A DNA stretch of 64,000 nucleotides from Nitrosarchaeum sp. (GTDB lineage: Archaea > Thermoproteota > Nitrososphaeria > Nitrososphaerales > Nitrosopumilaceae), in the NCBI GenBank assembly GCA_002737445.1, contig NSIR01000002.1, positions 286,663-350,662 on the forward strand, read 5' to 3'. This document shows, one piece after another, positions 59,115-61,874 of the stretch; the first letter of the stretch is position 1, and each line of letters begins with the position of its first letter. Position numbers and translations under genes: made by a program. The notes beneath the pieces were generated by a model that saw only the letters and a program-made list of their open reading frames with translations, was not told where the DNA came from and did not search any database.

Positions 59115-60530
59115 ATGACAAAATTGGTTATAGCCAAATTTGGAGGAAGCGCAATTGGTATTGATGGTATTTCAATTCCATTAATTATTGACAGAATTAA
59201 TGATTTAAAAAAAGATTCCAAAATTATTGCAGTGTTTTCAGCGCCTTTGACCATTCAAAATGGAAAAAAGTGTTCACTTACTGATGTAATTTTAGAACAA
59301 GGAAAAAATGCGGAAAATGGAACAAAAGCAACTTTAGATACGGTGAAATCATGCTATCAAAAAATTCTAGAATTAGTAAATTCAGAAAATAAAGAGGATT
59401 GTCAAAAAATCATAAATTTATTCTTAAAAAAAACAGAAAAAGCCTTAGAGGATGCTTTTGAAAAAAAAGAATTTGCCGAAGAGATACGTTCACGATCATT
59501 GGCTTTTTCAGGAGAAATTTTAATGTCACATGTAATGAATTACATTTTGAAAAGTAATGGCATAAAAACAGACGCAGTAAATTATGAGGATTGGCCAATA
59601 ATTACAGATAACAATATTGAATCAACAAATTTTCTTGCATCAAAATCTAGAGAAAATTTGGATAAAACAGCCAAATTAGTTGAAGAAAATGAGGTTGTTA
59701 CTATTGGTGGTTTTATAGGTAAAACAGTAGACGGTGTAACTACTACCTATGAGCGAGGCGGTTCTGATAGAACTGCTGCTGATTTAGGAATATTATTTTA
59801 TAAAAAATATGAAACAAGAATAGATTTTGAAAAAGATAGTTCTGTAGTATCGGCTGATCCAAAAACTGTAGAAATTGGATTAACTAAAGTAGATCAATTA
59901 TCATACAATGAAGCAAGATTAGCCGGAATGTTTGGTATGAAAATTTTAGATCCAATTGCAATAAAAGAAATTGTAGAAAATGGGGTGGATATACCAATCA
60001 TTGTTACAAATATGAAAGATCCGACAAAAACTACTGTGATAAAGAGAATTCCAGATAGTAAAAATGAACATCCAATAAAAATAATTACTGGAAAAGAAAA
60101 TTGTGCAATTTTTAAAATTGAAACAAATTCTGCTCAAAAATTATTAATTTCTCTTGAAAAAGATAAACGATATAACGAATATGTAATATTATCTCCATTT
60201 ACAAAAGATGGTGTTGAATTTTCAAGAATATTATTTTTAGATGGTGATTATATCAAAAGAAATGAAAAATATTTTCTTGGATTTGATTCTCTTGCATCAA
60301 TTACATACAATCGAGGTGTAATTACATTAATTGGTGATGAAATGTGGAAAGTGCAACAAGTTGCCTCAAGAACTAGTGCAAAAATTGGTGAAGCTGGTCT
60401 AAACATTTTGAATATGGATGCACAAGAAGAAACTTCAAGAATTATTATTGTGATTGAGGATTCTAATGACAATATAAGAAAAGCAATAAATGCAGTACAT
60501 GAAATAAAATCTGAAATTAATTTAATTTAA
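59115..60530 (+). CDS. lysC: Aspartate kinase
   Basis: The 471-residue protein has the kinase N-terminus IAKFGGSAIG, the TYERGGSDRTAADLG substrate segment and two ACT domains at the C-terminus, the last including VASRTSAKIGEAGLNILNM. It phosphorylates aspartate for Lys, Thr and Met synthesis and is usually feedback-inhibited through the ACT domains. A GC-rich hairpin starts 3 nt after the stop codon. Confidence 0.93.
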   Translation: MTKLVIAKFGGSAIGIDGISIPLIIDRINDLKKDSKIIAVFSAPLTIQNGKKCSLTDVILEQGKNAENGTKATLDTVKSCYQKILELVNSENKEDCQKIINLFLKKTEKALEDAFEKKEFAEEIRSRSLAFSGEILMSHVMNYILKSNGIKTDAVNYEDWPIITDNNIESTNFLASKSRENLDKTAKLVEENEVVTIGGFIGKTVDGVTTTYERGGSDRTAADLGILFYKKYETRIDFEKDSSVVSADPKTVEIGLTKVDQLSYNEARLAGMFGMKILDPIAIKEIVENGVDIPIIVTNMKDPTKTTVIKRIPDSKNEHPIKIITGKENCAIFKIETNSAQKLLISLEKDKRYNEYVILSPFTKDGVEFSRILFLDGDYIKRNEKYFLGFDSLASITYNRGVITLIGDEMWKVQQVASRTSAKIGEAGLNILNMDAQEETSRIIIVIEDSNDNIRKAINAVHEIKSEINLI

Positions 60531-60532
60531 AG

Positions 60533-60607
60533 TGGCGTTACGGGTTTTCACCTGTAGCGCCATAAGGGTTTGTTCTTGGACCGTATCTAGATTTAGCCCG
60601 GCGTTAC
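60533..60607 (+). ncRNA. GC-rich structured element with alternative pairings
   Basis: TGGCGTTACGGG (60533-60544) pairs with CCTGTAGCGCCA (60551-60562) as a 12-bp stem with two G-U pairs and a 6-nt loop. The word GGCGTTAC recurs at 60600-60607, so GTAGCGCC can pair with either copy. Between them GGGTTT and AGCCC can also pair. The stretch is far richer in GC than its surroundings. On the opposite strand the same stem has mismatches, which favours the plus strand. It may be a 3' UTR element, attenuator or small RNA. Confidence 0.55.
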
Positions 60608-60959
60608 CCACAACACGCAATATCATGATATAATTTGTAGTATATACATCTAATGGATATAGAAAACATTCAGATAGGCTCCAGTTAACTAATAAAAAAT
60701 TATTTCTCCAGTAATCATCACTAGTGACCAAGTTTTTGTTGTTAAGAAAAATATTATCTGAGGCTAAAAAGAAATTACAGATATTTCTTATTAAAAAATC
60801 ATGAATTTACAAAATCAAGTATTAAAAATTAGTTCTATGAAATCAAAAATGTATTTAATGTTAATTTTGATACTTTTTAAATATCTAATTTTAGATTTAT
60901 CACAGAATACAGTTATCTAAAGATAATTCTTTAAATTAGCAGAATATTTTCACTCTCCT
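60608..60959. other. Spacer before the second ilvE
   Basis: Beyond the GC-rich element the remaining 350 nt are AT-rich and show no gene. The promoter of ilvE must be in the right part, near the TTTTTAAATATC word at about 60874. Confidence 0.45.
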
Positions 60960-61874
60960 ATGAAAGAAATAGGTAAAATTTGGATGAACGGTAAATTAGT
61001 TCCATTCAAAGATGCCAAAGTGCATGTATTAACTCATGCTTTACATTATTCAACGTCGATTTTTGAAGGAGTTAGATGTTACAATACACCTATGGGTTCG
61101 GCAATTTTTAGATTGGAAGAACATGTTGATCGATTTTTCAATTCAGCAAAATTATATTCAATGAAAATGCAATTTTCCAAAAAAGAAGTTACTGATGCAA
61201 TTATTAAAACTGTAAAAGCTAGTGGATTAAAAGAGTGCTACATTAGACCACTAGCATACTATGGTTATGGAACCATGGGACTTACACCAACTACAAACAA
61301 AGTTGATGTATCAATTGCATGTTGGGAGTGGAGTATGGGTGAAGGAAAAGCTGGAAAATTTTCTGGTGCAAAATGTAAAATTTCAAGCTGGATAAAAATC
61401 GATTCAAGATCTCAACCAATGCAGGCAAAAGCAGCATCAAACTATGGAAATGCAGCACTAGCAAGAGTAGAAGCACTTGAAAGTGGATATGATGAAGCAA
61501 TAATGTTAAATTTACATGGAAAAGTTGCAGAAGGTAGTGCAGAAAATATTTTTGTCATAAAAGATGAGATCATTCAAACACCACCATTATCAGCAGGAGG
61601 ACTAGAAGGAATTACTAGAGATAGTGTAATTCAAATCATTGAAGAGAACGGTGGATTTGTAATAGAAAGAGATCTAGAAAGAGGGGACTTGTATTCAGCA
61701 GATGAAATATTTATGACAGGAACTGCTGCAGAAGTAAAATCAGTTACACAAATTGATAAAGTGGTCATAGGAAATGCAAAAATTGGAAAAATTACTAAAG
61801 CATTACAGAAATCATTTTCAAATGTTGCAATGGGTAAAGATGAAAGATTTTTGCCATGGTTAACTTTTATTTAA
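60960..61874 (+). CDS. ilvE: Branched-chain amino acid aminotransferase, second paralogue
   Basis: The 304-residue protein is a canonical IlvE: HALHYSTSIFEGVRCY, the PLP Lys in QAKAASNYGNAALA, EGSAENIFVI and MTGTAAEVKSV. It is closer to typical archaeal and bacterial IlvE in the PLP-Lys region (QAKAASNY) than the copy at 8608 (QAKMGGNY). It is the better candidate for bulk Val/Leu/Ile transamination. It is transcribed alone. Confidence 0.93.
   Translation: MKEIGKIWMNGKLVPFKDAKVHVLTHALHYSTSIFEGVRCYNTPMGSAIFRLEEHVDRFFNSAKLYSMKMQFSKKEVTDAIIKTVKASGLKECYIRPLAYYGYGTMGLTPTTNKVDVSIACWEWSMGEGKAGKFSGAKCKISSWIKIDSRSQPMQAKAASNYGNAALARVEALESGYDEAIMLNLHGKVAEGSAENIFVIKDEIIQTPPLSAGGLEGITRDSVIQIIEENGGFVIERDLERGDLYSADEIFMTGTAAEVKSVTQIDKVVIGNAKIGKITKALQKSFSNVAMGKDERFLPWLTFI

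Follow-up and report, generated by a model that had tools for sequence, protein, structure and literature searches.

Background

The retroviral dimerisation-initiation loop is a six-base palindrome in a hairpin loop, which varies yet stays self-complementary. The archaeal RNA described here has a loop of this kind, but the retroviral one belongs to viral genomic RNA and the two are not homologous. H-type pseudoknot riboswitches, of which preQ1-II is one, have an inserted hairpin and an A-rich strand, and so, in its predicted fold, does the archaeal RNA. Unlike these riboswitches it is not part of a 5' leader; its neighbour is the 3' end of lysC, which it faces, and Rfam has no match to it.

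The OLE, GOLLD and ROOL RNAs are several hundred nucleotides long. Their symmetric kissing loops are backed by evolutionary palindrome switches, as described in the structural report on them (PMC12286853). These RNAs are bacterial, whereas the RNA discussed here is archaeal, measures about 85 nt and is without Rfam match.

Tan1 of the marine Euryarchaeota, described as trans-encoded, resembles the predicted RNA in being non-coding, structured and stand-alone, and in coming from marine archaea (PMC5069720). It differs in length (229 nt) and phylum, and it was defined by its expression (PMC5069720). A survey of 104 motifs in bacteria and archaea used the same kind of comparative evidence as is used below; neither Nitrosopumilus nor Cenarchaeum is named in its main text (PMC2864571). 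Those of its motifs that were deposited in Rfam are covered by our Rfam search of the element.

A literature search turned up nothing on an RNA of this kind in the ammonia-oxidising archaea of the Nitrosopumilaceae. These ammonia oxidisers count among the sea's most abundant cells. The predicted RNA matters because it is nearly universal in these very abundant microbes, is undescribed in the literature found, and matches no known RNA family. If the explanation given below is true, natural RNA homo-oligomers extend to the archaea and to very small RNAs. It also makes a testable claim, which is that an RNA of about 85 nt should dimerise by itself.

The element and its setting

"The window" is the whole stretch of 64,000 nucleotides that was analysed, and all coordinates count from its first letter. 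The original prediction placed a GC-rich element directly after the stop of lysC in otherwise AT-rich DNA, and this is what is found there. The three words it named are also exact: GGCGTTAC at 60534-60541, GTAGCGCC at 60554-60561, and GGCGTTAC once more at 60600-60607. The element is single-copy in the source genome. The features of the neighbourhood are:

60532 to 60618, minus strand: predicted small structured RNA, 5' end at 60618 (covariance model E 3.6e-23 in the source genome)
59115 to 60530, plus strand: lysC (aspartate kinase; name as in the original prediction), convergent neighbour, an open frame of 471 aa, conserved as a neighbour in relatives
60960 to 61874, plus strand: divergent neighbour, an open frame of 304 aa which we take to be branched-chain aminotransferase-like, conserved as a neighbour in relatives
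60641 to 60646, minus strand: TATA box of the RNA (TATATA); it begins 28 nt before the predicted 5' end

The original prediction held that no known riboswitch class fits the element, and Rfam 15 agrees: there is no match within the RNA's coordinates, even at E 10. Across the window, gathering scores are reached by tRNAs only, and the sole other Rfam match is a chance match to a plant miRNA further along. The tRNAs number seven in the window (ARAGORN / Rfam), none of them at the element.

Distribution

With blastn, the element was found in 28 of 61 genomes searched (the source included) at E <= 4e-8, all of them Nitrosopumilaceae. A covariance model was then built from 22 of the matched sequences. 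Such a search had been suggested with the original prediction, which named absence from close relatives as evidence against the element; the model instead finds the RNA in 191 of 250 genomes of the family, and in 120 of the 131 of good quality. This conservation puts the element far beyond chance. Judged from these assemblies, the predicted RNA is near-universal in the Nitrosopumilaceae. In all counts given here, related sequences are not independent.

At the level of the class, 162 of 330 genomes have a covariance match at E <= 0.1, and among the matches listed only one genome (G336, E 0.066) is outside the family. A search of 400 class genomes gave five matches outside the family with E from 0.0075 to 0.086, as chance alone would produce. 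An anchor pattern with no constraint on the loop matches 163 of the 400, all in the family among the matches listed, and the reversed pattern used as a control has no match among those listed. In the class genomes searched there is no convincing covariance match outside the Nitrosopumilaceae. Carriers among the matches listed include members of Nitrosopumilus, Nitrosarchaeum, Nitrosotenuis, Nitrosotalea and Nitrosopelagicus, and the RNA is conserved from marine to acid-soil lineages.

Two copies (L211, L218) are on contigs binned as Pseudomonadales and Nitrososphaeraceae, which are probably misbinned or mislabelled. Viral carriers were considered as well: five IMG/VR contigs fit a loose pattern, but by eye all of these matches are in apparent coding sequence and due to chance.

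Predicted fold

The elements of the fold, read on the minus strand from the 5' end, are:

60615 to 60618, minus strand: S1 pseudoknot 5' strand GCGU, invariant in orthologs, with compensatory change in paralogs L316 and L317
60606 to 60609, minus strand: P1 5' strand GGGU, with double changes from GC to AU and from GC to CG
60601 to 60604, minus strand: S1 pseudoknot 3' strand ACGC, on the same basis (L316 and L317, two cases read by eye)
60596 to 60599, minus strand: P2 5' strand GGGC, with AU/GC covariation; departures are GU, never AC
60586 to 60591, minus strand: palindromic loop hexamer UCUAGA, the proposed self-kissing loop, with five different palindromes in the family
60578 to 60581, minus strand: P2 3' strand GUCC, covarying, with one minus-strand G-U pair in the source genome
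60570 to 60577, minus strand: A-rich strand AAGAACAA, nearly invariant in orthologs and most paralogs
60566 to 60569, minus strand: P1 3' strand ACCC, with double changes together with the P1 5' strand
60532 to 60563, minus strand: P3, an optional 3' terminal hairpin, which is the first stem of the original prediction; each of its 12 pairs changes on both sides

Compensatory changes had been called for as a check, and they are found. Without fitting, an alignment of 22 sequences shows changes on both sides at 12 of the 21 pairs, with 89.8% of the cells paired, and none of 500 shuffles reaches any of five measures. In an alignment of 100 sequences that was fitted to the covariance model, 17 of 21 pairs change on both sides, which no shuffle attains, and 93.8% of the cells pair. 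The folding of the stretch beats all 200 dinucleotide shuffles (z -3.1). The idea of a structured RNA under selection is thus borne out by its conservation, its folding and its compensatory changes. Comparison of the copies establishes the minus strand, the helices P1, P2 and P3, the conservation of the element and the palindromy of the loop.

The core looks like an H-type pseudoknot, formed by S1 and P1, which would enclose hairpin P2. S1 is the possible pairing of the 5' GCGU with ACGC across P1; it hardly varies among orthologs, so there it proves nothing. Two paralogs support the putative helix with changed letters, GAGU/ACUC in L316 and GCGUC/GACGU in L317. Both are weak matches (E 0.0097 and 0.022). 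Even so, each ends in T5 and carries a TATA-like box, which by eye lies at -28 or -29. It is possible that AAGAACAA is the minor-groove strand of the pseudoknot, or else a binding site for a partner.

Counts of distinct cores leave out L001, L084, L030, L031 and L078-L083. Four loci were not parsed by the core expression: L029, L244, L247 (cut by contig ends) and L281.

Predicted direction of transcription

The original prediction held that the element is selected as plus-strand RNA. Comparison points to the other strand, with the predicted RNA read from about 60618 down to 60532 and converging on lysC. Four observations favour this. Of 178 distinct upstream regions, 175 have a TATA-like box that starts at -31 to -28 from the conserved GCGTG, whereas shuffles average 4.7%; by this consensus the RNA would have its own promoter, as expected of a stand-alone small RNA. 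In P1 and P2 taken together, eight cells are G-U on the minus strand and none is A-C, the form that a plus-strand G-U would take; another 21 cells hold mismatches of other kinds, mainly in the outermost P1 pair. For P2 alone, the 90 distinct cores give nine G-U and no A-C on the minus strand. GNRA tetraloops on the minus strand close 61 of 142 distinct P3 hairpins (GAAA 49, GTAA 4, GCAA 4, GAGA 2, GCGA 1, GGAA 1); in the source genome the loop is GAAA, at 60546-60549. Finally, a T5 end on the minus strand is present in six of eight paralogs (L310-L312 and L315-L317). Plus-strand G-U pairs are found in P3 alone.

The loop palindrome

The loop hexamer varies, yet it is palindromic in every confident copy. 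The 90 distinct cores have TCTAGA 84 times, TCATGA five times and TCGCGA once, and the paralogs add CCTAGG and ATCGAT. On a tree of 163 rows, a FastTree of a short lysC stretch, the hexamer states of the orthologs need six changes, which could be four; at least about four are needed. When the core is scanned in windows of 6 nt, four of the five distinct in-register hexamers of the loop window are palindromic. The fifth, ATCGAT, is palindromic too, but one position out of register. Other windows of the core give two palindromes only, and one of these is that same ATCGAT.

The palindrome is kept through compensatory change. Adjacent bases in the middle of a loop cannot pair with each other, so the contact would be between two molecules. 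The pattern is as expected of a symmetric kissing-loop homodimer, and the RNA should dimerise. The same argument from palindrome switches has been made for OLE and GOLLD, whose homo-oligomers were solved by cryo-EM in the account given there (PMC12286853).

A palindrome may also be a DNA site. Such sites suit dimeric DNA-binding proteins, and many relatives have a second one, TGATCTATATAGATCA, upstream. However, the hexamer falls squarely within the loop of a hairpin that covaries, and both its half-site and its centre vary (CCTAGG, TCGCGA, ATCGAT), more than a single protein would be likely to accept. A DNA site in place of an RNA kissing loop is improbable, although of all the alternatives it fares best.

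The second palindrome, 16 bp long, is just upstream of the TATA box, at about -50 to -35 of the RNA, in L003, L005 and most relatives. The source genome has lost it. TGATCTATATAGATCA is a possible operator. As the mark of a regulon it was rejected: in 14 genomes searched, perfect or one-mismatch copies among the matches listed occur only at the RNA locus.

Diverged copies and proposed role

A second, diverged copy at E <= 1e-5 is present in six of 12 genomes (L310-L315), a number that is uninformative on paralog frequency, as the 12 were picked mostly for showing two matches earlier. The weaker second copies L316 and L317 are in genomes G069 and G187. P1 changes from GGGU/ACCC to CGGU/ACCG in L311-L314 and to AGGU/ACCU in L310. 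In L311 and L312 there is no P3, and T5 comes straight after the core. L315 seems to be degenerate in part. All of the paralogs sit between genes, with no common neighbour visible in their surroundings.

The best conserved part of the RNA is the 55-nt core beyond P3, not P3 itself. In orthologs and most paralogs the unpaired letters of this core are fixed while the stems change. The suggested tie to lysC does not hold up, as the RNA persists with lysC hundreds of nucleotides away and has paralogs elsewhere without it. Because the paralogs lack lysC, and two of them also P3, the unit is taken to be the 55-nt core, with lysC incidental.

The explanation we favour, and consider probable as a whole, is that of a stand-alone minus-strand RNA that acts in trans. 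It would be about 85 to 90 nt long and transcribed from its own TATA promoter. It would fold into the H-type pseudoknot of S1 and P1, with the P2 hairpin inserted and the P3 hairpin at its 3' end. Two molecules would dimerise by a symmetric kissing loop through the self-complementary hexamer of the P2 loop. Because paralogs keep the unpaired core while their stems change, we infer one common partner, protein or RNA, that recognises the core. For the same reason, the dimer would act as a trans-acting RNA, an RNP scaffold or a decoy, and not as a cis switch of lysC. Chances are about even for the wider claim of a novel non-coding RNA class in archaea, namely a pseudoknotted kissing-loop homodimer, single-copy and near-universal in the Nitrosopumilaceae, whose dispersed paralogs have one core-recognising partner in common.

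P3, a possibly shared hairpin

As predicted, the first stem is GC-rich and its wobbles are G-U on the plus strand, but in the source genome folding pairs 60532-60545 with 60550-60563, which makes 14 bp instead of the 12 given. Of 142 distinct copies, 58 (that of the source genome among them) have a P3 that is stabler on the plus strand, and this counts against the minus-strand reading. The distance to lysC has a bearing on this. Where the end of lysC is at least 60 nt away, the minus strand gives the stabler P3 in 25 of 26 copies, although this is a tendency and not proof, the far group being mostly from two genera (g9 and g6). Where lysC abuts, the minus strand is better in 43 and the plus strand in 62 of 120 copies. 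Five further copies have no lysC match in the flank.

The favoured explanation for the plus-strand preference of many copies is that the hairpin is shared with the abutting lysC; P3 may double as a lysC 3' hairpin. A stronger version has P3 as a bidirectional terminator or mRNA 3' end, shared by convergent transcripts, with no RNA gene at all. The dependence on lysC distance is what one would expect of it, but the core is conserved better than P3 and stands alone in two paralogs, which leaves this version unlikely. A shared 3'-end hairpin is accepted as a secondary role of P3. One lineage of genus g19 (L073-L077) has, in place of P3, an unrelated hairpin whose loop is T-rich.

The upstream gene

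Sequence was sufficient at 256 loci, and at 219 of these an open frame for a small, probable two-helix membrane protein precedes the RNA on the same strand, with 58 nt the commonest spacing. In L003 this is a short frame of about 70 aa, a probable two-helix membrane protein, that ends 51 nt before the RNA. The RNA could then be a processed fragment of that gene's 3' UTR. But the TATA box is between gene and RNA, 37 of the 256 loci keep the RNA without the gene (as effectively does the source genome, which holds at most a scrap of it), and the gene is seen in none of the paralog surroundings listed. Such an origin is very unlikely, and the RNA is better read as having its own promoter.

The proposed three-part switch

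In the original prediction, the central word can pair with either flanking copy. On the plus strand of 129 distinct copies, an 8-bp helix with the third copy is possible in 33, against 0.2% of shuffles, and one of 7 bp in one more; shuffled arms reach 7-8 bp in about 1%. In 64 of the 129, at most 4 bp are possible. The third copy is nearly constant (GGTAACGCC in 265 of 268 parsed loci), and the hairpin is kept by compensatory change while this copy stays fixed. The alternative pairing is thus a property of lineages and not the conserved function, and the plus-strand switch was ruled out on conservation of the alternative helix. What would mark a lysC riboswitch is accordingly not seen: promoter and wobble evidence are on the opposite strand.

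A riboswitch-like element in the 3' UTR of lysC is the least likely reading of all, since the existence of the three words and a stem that is stabler on the plus strand in the source genome are outweighed by a third copy that hardly ever changes with the hairpin, by the P1/P2 wobbles and TATA box on the minus strand, and by paralogs away from lysC and without P3.

Losses and decaying copies

Not every genome in the family has the RNA. In G010, G036, G172, G112 and G087 neither the RNA nor the neighbouring aminotransferase ortholog is present, and in G005 and G024 contigs end at the RNA's place; these seven absences are probably assembly gaps. There are also near-complete genomes without it, for example G023 and G021, and these two, together with G272 and G027, look like true losses. 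A link to ammonia oxidation was considered and rejected: amoA was found in 31 of the 33 genomes examined, among carriers of the RNA and non-carriers alike. As the RNA is lost in some genomes that have amoA, ammonia oxidation as such can do without it.

L078 (in G124) and L079 (in G196) are decaying copies of the RNA. The loop of L079 is TCTATAGA, a longer palindrome.
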